Assembly: GCF_001411495.1 (NCBI RefSeq)
Contig: NZ_CP012981.1
Coordinates: forward strand, 2,852,001-2,916,000
Length of the DNA stretch: 64,000 bases
DNA from: Burkholderia cepacia ATCC 25416
Lineage (GTDB): Bacteria; Pseudomonadota; Gammaproteobacteria; Burkholderiales; Burkholderiaceae
Direction of reading: 5' to 3'
Under the pieces are notes generated by a model that worked only from the letters and a program-made list of their open reading frames with translations, ran no database searches and was not told the DNA's origin. Position numbers and translations under genes: made by a program. Positions 1 to 4,167 of this stretch are shown here, piece by piece. Within the stretch, counting starts at the first letter, position 1. Each line of letters starts with the position of its first letter.

Positions 1-629
1 CGCAACGCCGCGTCGTGGCGCGCAAGGTACGCCGTGCATGCGGCATCCGTGTCGTCGAGCCCGTTGTAGCCGTGCTCGCGCATGTGCTGTTCGAGGATCG
101 ACTGGCCGAAACCGCGCGACCCGCTGTGCACGAGCAGCAGCAGGCGGTCGTGATCGAGGCCGAGCGCCTGGACGGCATCGGCGTCGTACACCGCGTCGAT
201 CCGCTGCGCTTCCGCGAAATGATTGCCGCTGCCGATCGTGCCGAGCGATGCCGCGAACGCGTGATCCGCGAACCCGGCGGCCGCGATGAGCGGCTGCCAG
301 CTTGCGTCGGGTGTGGTGTCGATCGAGCCGAGCCGGCTCGCGAGCTTCGACGCGCTGACGCGCCGCGCATCGAGCGCGGTTTGCCAAAGCGCCATTCCGC
401 AGCCGATATCGCCGCCGATCAGCGCCGGGTACAGCCGGCCCGTCGAAAAGAACGCGGCGCCGACCGGGTAGCCGCGTCCGGGGTGAAGATCGGGCATGCC
501 GGCGACACGCCGCATGCCGGGGAGGGTGGCAGCGTGTTCGAGCTGCCGGATGGCCTCACCTTCGATCCAGGTGGTGGCGCAAGCGCACAAGGTGACGCGC
601 TCGCCCAGGTATTGCATGGAATTGCCCAT
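1..629 (-). CDS. rtcB: RtcB-family RNA ligase (RtcB2-like), 3' end outside window
   Basis: RtcB joins RNA 2',3'-cyclic phosphate or 3'-phosphate ends to 5'-OH ends using GTP and Mn2+. The 209 visible codons contain the family motifs in order: DIGCGM (about residues 74-79, the Mn-binding Asp and Cys), GTIGSGNHFAE (His137) and HSGSRGFG (His168). The start ATG at 629 follows a GGAAACCTCC leader. The compact N-terminus resembles the RtcB2 group that usually precedes a release-factor-like prfH gene; prfH would lie left of the window, so this is inference. The 3' end, with the remaining metal-binding His and the guanylylated His, is cut off by the window edge. It is transcribed away from the RNA ligase/HD-Pnk pair, behind a long structured leader. 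Confidence 0.9.
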   Translation of the reverse strand, partial: MGNSMQYLGERVTLCACATTWIEGEAIRQLEHAATLPGMRRVAGMPDLHPGRGYPVGAAFFSTGRLYPALIGGDIGCGMALWQTALDARRVSASKLASRLGSIDTTPDASWQPLIAAAGFADHAFAASLGTIGSGNHFAEAQRIDAVYDADAVQALGLDHDRLLLLVHSGSRGFGQSILEQHMREHGYNGLDDTDAACTAYLARHDAAL

Positions 630-673
630 GGAGGTTTCCGTTCGATGAAAAGGTAGAACGGCGGGCCATGGCA

Positions 674-767
674 CAGGCAGCGCCCGAATGCGCTGCCTGA
701 CATCGGAAGTCGGGAAGAGGGCGGCACGACCGGATCGGAACGACCCGGCTCATCGCCGTGACGGCGA
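674..767 (-). ncRNA. three consecutive stem-loops in the rtcB leader
   Basis: Read on the minus strand, the 5' leader of rtcB contains three neighbouring hairpins. One is a 6-bp stem with loop TCA at 767-753. The second is an 8-bp stem (one G-U pair) with loop TTC at 748-730. The third is a perfect 10-bp stem CAGGCAGCGC with loop ATTCGG at 699-674. None is followed by a T-run, so they do not look like a simple terminator. They may be a cis-regulatory element or a small structured RNA. Function is not known. Confidence 0.45.
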
Positions 768-824
768 TACGGTGTGCTGCTGCGTGGCGTGAACGATGAA
801 ACGGACGGACGCGAAAAACCCGGA

Positions 825-863
825 CTACGACCCGCGACGGGAGGAGCGTTGGCGTGACGTCAT
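825..863 (-). CDS. possible 12-residue Arg-rich leader peptide
   Basis: An ATG at 863 lies 7 nt behind a strong ribosome-binding site (AAGGAG) and opens a 12-codon frame, MTSRQRSSRRGS, ending in TAG. Four of the twelve residues are Arg. It sits about 200 nt upstream of rtcB on the same strand and ahead of the three stem-loops. The position and composition resemble an attenuator leader peptide, but a chance ORF behind a chance Shine-Dalgarno cannot be excluded. Translation is not shown. Confidence 0.35.
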   Translation of the reverse strand: MTSRQRSSRRGS

Positions 864-1006
864 GATGTTCTTCTCCTTGCGAGTGAGGGGTTGATCGGAA
901 TGGCGGCGACTCTAGCATGCACGCAGCGGGCGCAGCAAGCGGGTAGCGCGGCGGCGCCTACCGAATCGTCGCCCGATGTGGCGAAAAACACACATATAGA
1001 CATCCT

Positions 1007-1022
1007 GACAATGTTCGTGCCG
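1007..1022 (-). promoter_or_regulatory. sigma-54-like promoter candidate for rtcB
   Basis: On the minus strand the sequence CGGCACGAACATTGTC matches the sigma-54 pattern GGCAC-N5-TTGC with correct -24/-12 spacing. The -24 GG is present, but the -12 dinucleotide is GT rather than GC. Many rtcB operons are driven by the sigma-54 activator RtcR. No RtcR gene is in the window. Confidence 0.3.
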
Positions 1023-1094
1023 ATGGCGCGTGCGGCACGCCACAGCAGGCACTCAACGCATGCAGGCGGCCGCATCAGCGGGCTCCGGCAGCGC

Positions 1095-1123
1095 TTGACA
1101 GTGCAAAAGCCGTTTCGTAGCAT
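1095..1123 (+). promoter_or_regulatory. sigma-70 promoter candidate for the RNA ligase operon
   Basis: A perfect -35 box TTGACA at 1095-1100, a 17-nt spacer and TAGCAT (4/6) at 1118-1123 lie about 245 nt upstream of the RNA ligase start. The resulting untranslated leader is long. The site would fire divergently from the rtcB leader. Confidence 0.5.
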
Positions 1124-1366
1124 CCGCCTGCTTCATCCCTGAACCCTCATCGAACCGGTGATCCAAGTGCCCGCAAACATTCGTCCCTTCGCCTGATACG
1201 CCGACGACTGCCGTCCCGGCCGCGTGTCGTCCTGCCCGTTTCCGCCCGCCTCGCGGCGCCGGAACGTCGACTGCAGGAACGCGCCCGGACAAGCACTGAC
1301 ACCGCAACGCACACCAGACCGTTCGTTCACGTCGTCGGCTTTTTCCCCTGTTTCCGGAGAAAGACC

Positions 1367-2236
1367 ATGACGCTGGATTTTCGCGCATACGCGCAATCGC
1401 TCGACCTCGCCCGCTACCCGCGCACGCCGCATCTCGAAGGCTCGCGCCTGCAGGACGGCGACGAAGGTCGCGAACACGTTCCCTATCGCACCCTCGCGGG
1501 CGCACACATCGTCGTCGAGGAAAAGCTCGACGGCGCGAACACGGGCATCAGCTTCGGCCCGGCGGGCGAACTGCTGCTGCAGTCGCGCGGCCACTATCTG
1601 GCCGGCGGCGGCCGCGAGCGGCAGTTCGGTTTCGTGAAGACGTGGGCCGCCGCCCATGCAGGCTGGCTGCTCGACCGCCTCGGCGATCGCTACGTGATGT
1701 ACGGCGAGACGATGAGCAAGAAGCACGCGGTGTTCTACGACGCGCTGCCGCATCACTTCTTCGAATTCGACGTGTTCGACCGCACGACGGGCCGTTTCCT
1801 GTCGACGTGCGCGCGTCGCGCGCTGCTTGCCGACGGGCCCGTGCTGTCGGTGCCCGTGCTGTACGAAGGCATCGCGCCGGCGCGGCTCGCCGACCTGAAG
1901 GCACTGCTCGGCCCGTCGCTCGCGAAGACGCCGGACTGGCGTCGCGCGTTCGAGGAAACGGTGCGGCGGCAGGGGCTCGACCTCGCACGCGCATGGCAGC
2001 AGTGCGACAAGTCGGCCCGCGCGGAAGGGCTCTACGTGAAGGTCGAGACGGACGACACGACGACCGCGCGCCTGAAGTGGGTCCGCCACGATTTCGTGCA
2101 GGCGATTCTCGAATCGGCGCGCCATCACTCGGAGCAACCGTTCATCCCGAACCTGCTCGCGCCGGATGTCGACCTGTATGCGCCGCGGCCGACGGTCACG
2201 TGGCGATCGATCGCCGCGACGCGCGCGCACCCATGA
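1367..2236 (+). CDS. T4 Rnl-like ATP-dependent RNA ligase
   Basis: This protein is predicted to seal 5'-phosphate and 3'-OH RNA ends through a ligase-AMP intermediate. It shows the nucleotidyltransferase motifs in order: KLDG (Lys53, AMP acceptor), YGE in YVMYGETM (motif IIIa region), EGLYVK (motif IV) and LKWVR (motif V). At 289 residues it is about the size of a minimal RNA ligase, with no obvious extra domain. The ATG at 1367 has a good RBS (GGAGAAAG). It precedes the HD-Pnk gene by 41 nt on the same strand, so the two should form one end-healing and sealing unit like the two-gene operon described in Runella. Substrate is unknown. Confidence 0.85.
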   Translation: MTLDFRAYAQSLDLARYPRTPHLEGSRLQDGDEGREHVPYRTLAGAHIVVEEKLDGANTGISFGPAGELLLQSRGHYLAGGGRERQFGFVKTWAAAHAGWLLDRLGDRYVMYGETMSKKHAVFYDALPHHFFEFDVFDRTTGRFLSTCARRALLADGPVLSVPVLYEGIAPARLADLKALLGPSLAKTPDWRRAFEETVRRQGLDLARAWQQCDKSARAEGLYVKVETDDTTTARLKWVRHDFVQAILESARHHSEQPFIPNLLAPDVDLYAPRPTVTWRSIAATRAHP

Positions 2237-2277
2237 ATGCGGAACGGCCGTGCGCCGTTTCGAGAGGAGTCTTGATC

Positions 2278-3411
2278 ATGAAGTACGAACAACTGCAGGC
2301 ACTCGTGCCCGCGCCCGGACGGCAGCCGGACTACCGCGCATGCATCGCGGCGTTTCCCGCGCTCGAACAGGCGAAAACGACACCGCAGGAGCCGGCATAC
2401 CACGGCGAAGGCCACGTGTGGACGCATACGACGATGGTGATCGATGCGCTGCTCGCGTTGCCCGGTTATCAGGCCGCGTCGCGCGCCGACCAGGAAATCG
2501 TGTTCCTGGCCGCGCTGCTGCACGACATCGCGAAGTACCGCACGACGGTCGTCGATCCCGTCACCGGCGCGATCGGTCATCCCGGCCACTCGCGCAAGGG
2601 GGCGATCGATGCGCGTATCGCGCTGTGGGATGCCGGCGTGCCGTTCGCGGTGCGCGAGGCGATCTGCCGGATGATCGCCGTGCACCAGGTGCCGTTCTTC
2701 GCGATGAGCGGGTCGCGCCGCGGCACGCCCGAGTTCATCGCGCGCGAACTGTCGTGGCAGGTGAGCCTGCCGCTGCTGTGCCTGCTCGCCGAAGCCGATA
2801 TGCGCGGGCGCATCTGCAGCGATACGCAGCGCGTGCTCGACAACATCGAACTGTTGCGCGAACTGGCGCGGGAGGAAGGGTGTTATGGCCAGCCGCGCGC
2901 GTTCGCCGACGCGCACACCGCGCTCAGCTACTTTCGCGGCGCAGACGTGCATCCCGACTATCCGCTGTTCCGCACGCCGGGCTCGCAGGTTGTCATGATG
3001 TCGGGCCTGCCCGCGTCGGGCAAGAACACGTGGGTCGCGCGGCATCATCCGGACCTGCCCGTCGTGTCGTTCGACGATGCACGCGATGCATTGGGGCTGC
3101 GCCATGGCCAAAACGAGGGCGCCGTCGCGCACCATGCAGTCGACGCCGCGAAGGCACTGTTGCGGGAGAAGCGGCCGTTCGTGTGGAACGCGACGAACCT
3201 GTCGCCGCTGATGCGCAAGAAGACGCTCGACCTGCTGTTCGCGTACGGCGCCGACGTGACGCTCGTCTATCTCGAGAAGCCGCGCGCGGAGCTGTTGCGC
3301 CGCAACGCGCAGCGCGACACGTCGCTGACGAACCGCGCGCTCGAGGCGATGCTGCCGCGCTGGGATCCGCCGCTGCCCACCGAGGCGCACGCGGTGCGGT
3401 ACGAAGTCTGA
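2278..3411 (+). CDS. HD-Pnk: HD phosphoesterase fused to 5'-OH polynucleotide kinase
   Basis: A two-domain end-healing enzyme of 377 residues. The N-terminal half is an HD phosphohydrolase (His46 and His50 region, then LHDIAKY with His82-Asp83, later conserved His) expected to remove 2',3'-cyclic phosphate. The C-terminal half is a P-loop kinase with GLPASGKNT near 243-251, where Asn replaces the usual Ser/Thr after Lys. It also has FDDAR (Asp266/267, likely general base) and an Arg-rich lid near RRNAQRDTS. The domain order matches Runella HD-Pnk. The ATG at 2278 follows GAGAGGAG and gives a methionine at the start of conserved sequence; upstream in-frame codons belong to the shadow of the ligase gene. 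It would prepare broken RNA ends for the adjacent ligase. Confidence 0.88.
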   Translation: MKYEQLQALVPAPGRQPDYRACIAAFPALEQAKTTPQEPAYHGEGHVWTHTTMVIDALLALPGYQAASRADQEIVFLAALLHDIAKYRTTVVDPVTGAIGHPGHSRKGAIDARIALWDAGVPFAVREAICRMIAVHQVPFFAMSGSRRGTPEFIARELSWQVSLPLLCLLAEADMRGRICSDTQRVLDNIELLRELAREEGCYGQPRAFADAHTALSYFRGADVHPDYPLFRTPGSQVVMMSGLPASGKNTWVARHHPDLPVVSFDDARDALGLRHGQNEGAVAHHAVDAAKALLREKRPFVWNATNLSPLMRKKTLDLLFAYGADVTLVYLEKPRAELLRRNAQRDTSLTNRALEAMLPRWDPPLPTEAHAVRYEV

Positions 3412-3443
3412 TGCGGCGGCGTCACGGCAAATGTCACCGCACA

Positions 3444-3479
3444 AGCCGGTACACCGCCCGTCATTGCGGCATACCGGCT
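3444..3479. terminator. hairpin between convergent genes
   Basis: An 8-bp inverted repeat, AGCCGGTA at 3444-3451 and TACCGGCT at 3472-3479, encloses an inner CCGC/GCGG stem. It lies between the HD-Pnk gene and the convergent gene ending at 3484. There is no T-run on either strand, so termination is inferred from position only. Confidence 0.35.
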
Positions 3480-3483
3480 CGCA

Positions 3484-4167
3484 TCATTTCAGCGCAGGAT
3501 TCTGCTGCGTCGCACACGCGCGCAACGCGGTGACGAGATCGGGCTGGCCGAGCTTCTCGAACAGGTCGGCCATTTCCATCTGCGCGACCGGATCGCCTTC
3601 GCGCGCCGCGCGCCAGCGCAGCGACGCGATCATCCCGCTCATGCCCTCGCCGGGCGTTTCGCCGTCGTAGCCCGACATCGCCTGCAAGACGTCCGCGAGC
3701 TTGTTGTAGCCGGCCGGCACGTAATGAACGAGCAGCCACGCAATCGCCGGCTGCGCGCCTTCCCAATCCTCGTCGTCGAGCGAACTGCTCGCGAGGCGCG
3801 CGGCCGCACGCCACGAACCGAGCGATGCGGCCTTCGCGTAGGCCTTGTCGGCGTCGCGGCCGCGCGACGACGGCGCCGCGTCGAACGCGGCCTGCGCTTC
3901 GGCCGACGGCGGCGGCAGCGCGAGCTTCGTGCAGCTGAACGCACCGGCATCCGGTGCGTTGCCGGGCAGGCCGGCCCAGCGCGCCTGGTCCTTCAGCGCG
4001 CGATCGAGCGTGGGCCGCACGTCGCTTTCCTTCATCGACGCGAACACCCAGTCGGTACGGACATGGCGCGCAGCGTCCCAATCGCTTTCGGCAGCGGCAT
4101 GCTGCGCGAACGCGAGGCAGGCCGCCACGCAGCCGATGCGGAACAGGTTTCGGACAGGAGATTTCAT
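3484..4167 (-). CDS. exported protein of unknown function, helical-repeat-like
   Basis: Starting at the ATG at 4167 gives a 227-residue protein with a typical signal peptide: MKSPVRN, a hydrophobic stretch, then AQHAAAES with a likely signal peptidase I site after AAA. The mature part is rich in Ala and short helices. Segments around ADKAYAKAASLGSWRAAARLA and REGDPVAQMEMADLFEKLG resemble Sel1/TPR-type repeats, but no repeat is clean. It starts 13 nt after the upstream lipoprotein gene and is probably cotranscribed with it. The in-frame upstream extension to 4254 runs into that gene and was rejected. No specific function is recognised. Confidence 0.75.
   Translation of the reverse strand: MKSPVRNLFRIGCVAACLAFAQHAAAESDWDAARHVRTDWVFASMKESDVRPTLDRALKDQARWAGLPGNAPDAGAFSCTKLALPPPSAEAQAAFDAAPSSRGRDADKAYAKAASLGSWRAAARLASSSLDDEDWEGAQPAIAWLLVHYVPAGYNKLADVLQAMSGYDGETPGEGMSGMIASLRWRAAREGDPVAQMEMADLFEKLGQPDLVTALRACATQQNPALK

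Follow-up and report, generated by a model that had tools for sequence, protein, structure and literature searches.

What signals to a bacterial cell that its RNA has been broken, and with which sealing chemistry does the cell answer? To our knowledge, the signals and targets of bacterial RNA-repair enzymes are largely open, with the RtcR/tRNA-half system as the worked-out case. The question is raised by a locus at the left edge of a stretch of 64,000 nucleotides (nt) from Burkholderia cepacia ATCC 25416, hereafter the window (G000:C1:2852001-2916000; host genome of 8.6 Mb, four contigs), where two complete operons for RNA repair diverge from each other: rtcB2-prfH, read leftwards, and rnl-HD-Pnk, read rightwards. 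RtcB joins 3'-phosphate or cyclic-phosphate ends to 5'-OH ends, and Rnl requires 3'-OH and 5'-phosphate ends, which HD-Pnk would make. Our analysis makes it probable that each operon has its own promoter and a leader combining a short upstream open reading frame (uORF) with a long-range helix, and that stalled translation would switch on both arms. Chances seem about even for a broader reading, in which an undescribed leader that senses translation is shared by the rnl-HD-Pnk operons found in beta- and gammaproteobacteria and by those on some Pseudomonas plasmids. In Burkholderia this leader would lie back to back with an armZ-type sensor of separate origin, so that the single signal of stalled translation would fire both sealing chemistries. 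The new element is the rnl leader; control by leader open reading frames (ORFs) as such is already known.

The first step concerns the enzymes. Three of the four genes lie at least partly in the window:

1-629, minus strand: 5' part of rtcB2, with its start at 629; the remaining ~519-520 nt lie left of the window
1367-2236, plus strand: rnl, ATP-dependent RNA ligase, 289 aa (Pfam RNA_ligase PF09414, 111.4 bits)
2278-3411, plus strand: HD-Pnk, HD phosphohydrolase and P-loop kinase, 377 aa (AAA_33 PF13671, 71.4 bits; HD PF01966, 27.1 bits)

The initial annotation had read an RtcB gene divergent from Rnl and HD-Pnk, and profile matches for all genes bear this out. It had also allowed for an RtcB truncated just outside the window, which is excluded by ORF calling beyond the edge: rtcB2 is entire (L005 10481-11629, 382 aa), belongs to the subfamily of TIGR03073 ‘release_rtcB’ (537.8 bits, cut-off 271.8, profile positions 2-356 of 356) and scores 560.3 bits against NF007153. 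The prfH gene that had been supposed to lie further left was found there by leftward extension (L005 9873-10487; TIGR03072 284.8 bits, cut-off 166.65). It directly follows rtcB2, its start lying inside the rtcB2 end with a 7-nt overlap, and its translation contains GGQ and aligns over 200 residues with 7sa4, a PrfH chain of solved structure. We thus rejected an RtcB that is truncated or stands alone. In the other operon, the Rnl translation contains EKLDG, which we take to be the catalytic KxDG lysine motif of ATP-dependent RNA ligases. HD and P-loop kinase domains are both found in the single HD-Pnk protein, encoded 41 nt downstream of rnl; the closest relatives of HD-Pnk are from Burkholderia. 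Neither Rnl nor HD-Pnk has a solved-structure relative by sequence at an expectation value (E) up to 0.001. A known anti-phage defence system was rejected, no PADLOC model matching any of the four proteins.

Both operons have described counterparts. In E. coli, RtcB2-PrfH protects from colicin E3 (PMC9223846), and the module of strain ATCC25922 is described with the same two families in the same order, the stop codon of one gene lying near the start codon of the next or overlapping it (PMC9223846; Baranov 2006, PMC1586002); unlike it, the module in the window adjoins a chemically different repair operon, back to back. Deinococcus radiodurans has an HD-Pnk gene (DRB0098) in an operon with the ligase-like DRB0100, and 5'-kinase activity is reported for the former (PMC1997131). 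The likeness to the window is that of an HD and polynucleotide kinase gene beside a gene for an ATP-using nucleotidyltransferase. The Deinococcus operon is however irradiation-induced and has a third gene, and the 3'-phosphatase activity is left open in that account.

The second step is the control of the rnl arm, for which comparison across loci indicates the following leader:

1167-1196, plus strand: uORF of 9 codons with a GTG start (comparison of loci)
1200-1208, plus strand: 5' strand of helix P1, 3 nt after the uORF stop (comparison of loci, pairing scores, RNAalifold)
1216-1288, plus strand: P2 domain inside P1 (RNAalifold on alignment A3, columns 68-88/140-154)
1331-1339, plus strand: 3' strand of P1, 27 nt before rnl, with a U-run behind it at 1340-1344 (comparison, RNAalifold)
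1356-1359, plus strand: Shine-Dalgarno site of rnl

Just ahead of the uORF start stands GGTGATCCA (window positions 1157-1165), presumably complementary to the 3' end of 16S rRNA. A scan of 84,980 species genomes using an HD-Pnk alignment gave 156 relatives, the best 80 of which represent 79 distinct loci; sufficient upstream sequence was available for 77 of these (not for L040, which is cut, or for L066, which lacks an rnl match). A Shine-Dalgarno-like site and a tiny ORF precede rnl in 76 of the 77 loci, from beta- and gammaproteobacteria, with L077 as the exception. This search covered 5-10 codons and, among several candidates, chose one with helix-like bases after its stop. The uORF is 8 or 9 codons long in 75 of the 76 loci and 6 codons in one, and it starts with GTG in 58. 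Helix P1, which pairs the bases after the stop with a stretch shortly before rnl, reaches at least 7 bp (G-U allowed) in 64 of the 76 loci, beginning 1-3 nt past the uORF stop in 60 of them and overlapping the stop in 4.

The pairing is kept through compensatory changes, with strand variants such as GCCGACGA/TCGTCGGC, GCTGACGA/TCGTCAGC, GCCAACGA/TCGTTGGC and CCGACAACG/CGTTGTCGG. Mean pairing scores were 15.26 for strands of the same locus, 13.69 for strands combined across genera and 10.31 for shuffled ones; the own-locus score exceeded the cross-genus mean in 58 of 76 loci and stood at or above the 99th percentile of shuffles in 51. When uORF and helix were scored together without any choice among candidates, 60 of 77 rnl upstream regions were positive compared to 4 of 730 random windows from the same loci, the latter not matched for position before genes. 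RNAalifold recovers P1 in two separate alignments (A3 and A4), and on A3 it also predicts the P2 helix, in which both partners have changed at six base pairs.

A covariance model of the leader, built on 16 sequences including 7 of the 16 Burkholderia loci, was run over a survey of 65 Burkholderia genomes that includes the window genome. It matches all 16 rnl-bearing genomes, each match ending at rnl and nine of these loci standing outside the model, and it also detects Pseudomonas luteola, likewise not in the model (E = 1.3e-5). Twelve further Burkholderia genomes gave weak matches only (E 0.003-0.1). A stand-alone RNA was rejected, given that matches away from rnl in the 65 genomes are weak and either short or partial. 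A uORF and P1 of this kind also precede rnl-HD-Pnk on two plasmids of P. aeruginosa. Since strong matches occur only directly before rnl (16/16), and P1 closes its domain into a loop that brings the two ends near each other, as in a ligase substrate, the leader might instead be a structured RNA that is bound, cut or sealed by the repair enzymes, with free Rnl or HD-Pnk regulating their own operon. We consider this very improbable, as enzyme binding would not need a uORF that recurs in nearly every locus at near-constant length with its stop beside the helix.

The rtcB2 arm appears to follow the same logic with different parts. Its putative leader comprises:

825-863, minus strand: uORF of 12 codons (conserved with its Shine-Dalgarno site in 19 Burkholderia loci)
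873-878, minus strand: Shine-Dalgarno site of this uORF (alignment of Burkholderia loci)
827-835, minus strand: 5' strand of the helix, within the last uORF codons (9 bp with 661-669, counting G-U)
661-669, minus strand: 3' strand of the helix, at a distance of 31 nt from the rtcB2 start (block conserved over 14 sequences)

All 19 aligned Burkholderia rtcB2 loci have the 12-codon uORF, nine loci of genus g24 have one of 14 codons in the same place, and in both groups the partner strand of the helix ends 31-39 nt before rtcB2. The helix strands show A:U/G:C exchanges between E. coli (GCAGAC/GTCTGC), Klebsiella (GCAGGTC/GGCCTGC), Proteus (GCGGACA/TGTCCGC), g24 (GCAGGCC/GGCCTGC) and Burkholderia (GCGGGTC/GGCCCGC), and L115 has a helix of 15 bp. 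Own-locus scores lie modestly above cross-group scores, e.g. 14.95 vs 12.73 in Burkholderia. Outside Burkholderia and g24, uORF and helix are clear in 5 of 11 loci (L115, L124, L125, L126 and L130; two of them E. coli).

For this arm there is a published precedent. The P. aeruginosa gene armZ (PA5471), encoding an RtcB-like RNA ligase beside prfH (PA5470), is described as controlled via the leader peptide PA5471.1 (PMC12057347). According to the model given in PMC13041342, a terminator forms once the leader is fully translated and fails to form while ribosomes are stalled on the leader, as happens for instance if the cell does not make tRNA CCA ends; two codons of the leader matter in this. 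The rtcB2 arm of the window is likewise an rtcB-like gene adjoining prfH behind a short leader ORF, the two leaders being likened by description only. ArmZ differs in being also an anti-repressor of MexZ. The comparison would place armZ, known mainly as an efflux-pump regulator, among ribosome-repair operons that sense stalled translation.

Where do the two leaders begin? The gap between rtcB2 and rnl measures exactly 737 bp (630-1366), as the initial annotation had it, and aligned over 14 Burkholderia genomes it shows two conserved blocks and a variable middle. The blocks include candidate promoters:

1095-1100, plus strand: -35 box of the rnl promoter (invariant in 14/14)
1118-1123, plus strand: -10 box of the rnl promoter after a 17-nt spacer (invariant in 14/14)
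909-914, minus strand: -10 box of the rtcB2 promoter (invariant in 14 aligned gaps; a 2-base variant in g24)
933-938, minus strand: -35 box of the rtcB2 promoter, 18-nt spacer (first four bases alone invariant; missed by a simple scan)

The rnl promoter reads TTGACA-17-TAGCAT and its -10 box ends 243 nt before rnl; the -10 box on the other side lies 279 nt before rtcB2. Judged by conservation, the gap is thus composed of two outward promoters of the sigma-70 type, each with a leader of its own, and not of the one structured control region that had been proposed for it. The word ‘structured’ holds for local pairing, which is conserved by comparison, and fails for the gap folded globally: z-scores of the whole gap are -0.06 (plus strand) and 0.88 (minus strand), no better than shuffles, and a single global structured RNA over the 737 bp was rejected. 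A known RNA family in the leaders was also rejected, Rfam giving no match at E up to 1 in window positions 500-3600 and none at the gathering score in nine loci; the same holds for a tRNA gene, in 14 loci. The main text of a start-site study of Burkholderia cenocepacia (PMC4603805), as far as it was available, makes no mention of rtcB, RNA ligase, uORF or leader peptide.

A dedicated activator is a different way of coupling damage to repair. In rtcBA, RNA damage in the form of 5' tRNA halves with a cyclic phosphate is reported to switch on repair via RtcR and its CARF domain (PMC7790460). That system is controlled by its activator, whereas the arms of the window have no adjacent RtcR and no sigma-54 promoter above chance. 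Control by RtcR and sigma-54 was rejected, because the sole RtcR found is encoded on C2 and sigma-54-like patterns in L005 number 52 against 57 expected by chance. No shared regulator of both arms was found. The RtcR gene of the window genome lies at C2:746175-746729 with another rtcB about 2 kb away (span C2:746175-749821), and a further RtcB, of the type found in Janthinobacterium (see below), is encoded at C2:2621803-2622990.

Put together, these elements suggest how the locus might work. In the left arm, going by E. coli, PrfH would free the stalled, cleaved ribosome and RtcB2 would rejoin the 2',3'-cyclic phosphate and 5'-OH ends; in the right arm, as expected from the protein families, HD-Pnk would heal both ends and Rnl would seal 3'-OH to 5'-phosphate. 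Each leader would set its short uORF, if translated, against the long-range helix. A ribosome on the rtcB2 uORF, or at the stop of the rnl uORF, would mask the 5' strand and the helix would not form, while fast uORF translation and release would allow it to form. The masked helix would correspond to expression being on, a direction taken from the armZ precedent for the rtcB2 arm and assumed by analogy for the rnl arm, and the helix itself may serve as terminator. Plausible inducers are stalled translation from broken tRNA, cleaved 16S rRNA and ribosome inhibitors. A leader kept across many genera would be a direct handle on which damage triggers RNA repair, and should both arms be co-induced by one signal, the cell would bring both sealing chemistries to bear together on an RNA break of unknown kind.

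Several results weigh against this picture. On the rnl side, 12 of the 76 loci, all from Comamonadaceae, have a P1 shorter than 7 bp, and covariation contributes little to the RNAalifold energies (-1.33 and -0.67 kcal/mol). The covariance model misses most other genera, hence leaders diverge widely outside P1 and the uORF, and two of four inspected plasmid loci (Variovorax L123 and Pseudomonas sp. FeN3W L121) have no such leader by eye; HD-Pnk is more distant in both, and in L121 it precedes rnl. The uORF peptides vary between genera, so that an amino-acid-specific stall is not indicated for rnl, and a codon-specific attenuator was rejected for this arm. On the rtcB2 side, automatic ranking put another helix or ORF first in three Burkholderia loci (L016, L087 and L096) and other helices first in L125 and L126 (Klebsiella and Proteus). 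Here uORF and helix are absent or unclear in 6 of the 11 loci outside Burkholderia and g24 (L116, L117, L118 and the alphaproteobacterial L127, L128 and L129), and a like search found no uORF before six Janthinobacterium rtcB genes that also diverge from rnl. The attenuation of armZ is itself called proposed and in need of confirmation (PMC12057347). Lastly, the weak folding of the whole gap extends to the two leaders folded alone (z = -1.30 and -0.64; 1.68 for the uORF part of the rtcB2 leader), and since folding energies do not beat shuffles, the case for the leaders depends on sequence comparison.

A U-run (TTTT within 14 nt) stands behind P1 in only 29 of 64 loci, and P1 can therefore not act as a simple terminator everywhere. 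This also agrees with ordinary Rho-dependent or translational-coupling leaders that would set the level of expression without sensing damage, as do the frequent GTG starts, which suggest weak initiation of the uORFs. Such leaders seem improbable to us in view of the pairing, kept across loci, that joins the region of the uORF stop to the start of the gene, and of the stall response published for armZ (PMC12057347, PMC13041342), and damage sensing by stalled translation is retained as the preferred explanation.

The third step asks whether the two operons belong together at all. Within the 65 Burkholderia genomes, prfH was found above cut-off in 19 and rnl in 16; HD-Pnk was matched in 20, of which four yield no more than 3' fragments. 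Both prfH and rnl occur in 14 genomes, 1.86-1.88 kb apart in every one. The survey for co-occurrence that the initial annotation had called for thus shows the modules adjacent in every one of these Burkholderia genomes that has both. The family sample of 279 genomes has prfH in 20 and rnl in 9, and outside Burkholderia G168 alone has both, on different contigs. In a class sample of 369 genomes, prfH (E up to 1e-45) was found in 6 and HD-Pnk (E up to 1e-60) in 2, with joint occurrence in the window genome alone. The pairing of RtcB and rnl is therefore more than chance and not the accident of one strain, but it is rare, in line with its having been thought unusual.

Among the 79 rnl-HD-Pnk loci, 16 have a divergent RtcB upstream of rnl, 10 from Burkholderia (one cut by a contig end) and 6 from Janthinobacterium, and the joint arrangement thereby extends beyond this strain as had been anticipated. 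When the neighbours of rnl-HD-Pnk were called by a crude ORF finder, no family cluster among them was larger than that of RtcB (15/79 loci). The Janthinobacterium RtcB belongs to another subfamily, scoring below the TIGR03073 cut-off; it is 34% identical to RtcB2 of the window and 66% identical to an RtcB on the second replicon of the window genome. No prfH was found at these six loci. The HD-Pnk tree places Burkholderia (100/100) as the sister group of Achromobacter and Ralstonia, at whose loci no RtcB was found beside rnl; the next lineage out is the main Janthinobacterium clade, a placement of modest support (83/78). On this tree, 7 changes of the RtcB label are needed, at least 4 of them forced by well-supported branches. 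The pairings in Burkholderia and Janthinobacterium apparently arose independently, a view that we hold mainly because the RtcB subfamilies differ. The earlier idea of two routes side by side stands insofar as both modules are present; two pathways is however too low a count, given two more RtcB genes on another replicon of the window genome, and elsewhere the modules are separable.

This separability argues for the operons being neighbours by history only, the rtcB2 arm having an armZ-type attenuator and the rnl arm answering an unrelated signal, without coordination. Five Burkholderia genomes have prfH without rnl (G009, G021, G048, G050 and G059) and two have rnl without prfH, namely G007, whose locus L098 is without rtcB-prfH only, and G057, where a contig ends inside rtcB. 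Moreover, no RtcB was found beside rnl-HD-Pnk in 63 of the 79 loci, several of which end at a contig edge, and the two leaders are unlike in sequence and layout. We nevertheless judge such a purely historical neighbourhood rather unlikely. The Janthinobacterium pairing involves another RtcB subfamily, and both leaders share a common logic in which a uORF is set against a long-range helix. The locus history also fits loss as a unit: in L093 the 3' ends of prfH and HD-Pnk stand side by side within the same flanks as the cluster loci, and in L095 the 3' end of prfH remains, overlapped on the other strand by a 34-residue match to HD-Pnk, both being consistent with an interior lost in one piece. 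The flanks were compared over seven cluster loci (L005, L096, L097, L099, L102, L103 and L104); all seven have one and the same transporter gene on their left, and the right neighbours of the window genome recur in five. A common signal for both arms hence remains the preferred explanation.

Burroughs and Aravind 2016, reportedly the main review of such gene neighbourhoods, lay outside our literature search, which returned nothing on point for the rnl leader, for the combined arrangement or for a prfH leader outside Pseudomonas. Chemically different RNA ligases in one genome have already been published for jumbo phages, which carry RtcB, Rnl1 and Rnl2 together (PMC7824862). These are phage genomes, and the part of that article available to us reports neither a back-to-back layout nor leader control.

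Further observations concern the fate of the HD-Pnk gene. In L094 (5731-7772; G031) the cluster is lost, and two ORFs with an atypical third-position GC of about 0.62 stand beside an HD-Pnk remnant. In L097 (7662-15823; G001, also L105/L017), which like L055 comes from B. aenigmatica, an insert of about 7 kb breaks HD-Pnk near residue 44. This insert holds ORFs that are recombinase-like by reading only and a second HD-Pnk copy (residues 1-375, about 70% identity), and is thus an element carrying its own copy of its target gene. A different insert, with large ORFs that are transposase-like by reading only, splits HD-Pnk near residues 26-42 in L096 (8011-15501; G010), making two insertions at nearly one site. 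In the Agitococcus locus L066 (10001-11366), where no rnl was found, the first 44 residues of HD-Pnk are duplicated. The rtcB2-prfH module also varies: at L114 (2847-3452; G673), the 4 kb examined around prfH, of which 2.8 kb lie upstream, gave no rtcB2. Finally, on a Klebsiella IncC plasmid typed as conjugative (L125 1501-4155), rtcB2-prfH adjoins sul1, which suggests that ribosome repair moves along with drug resistance.

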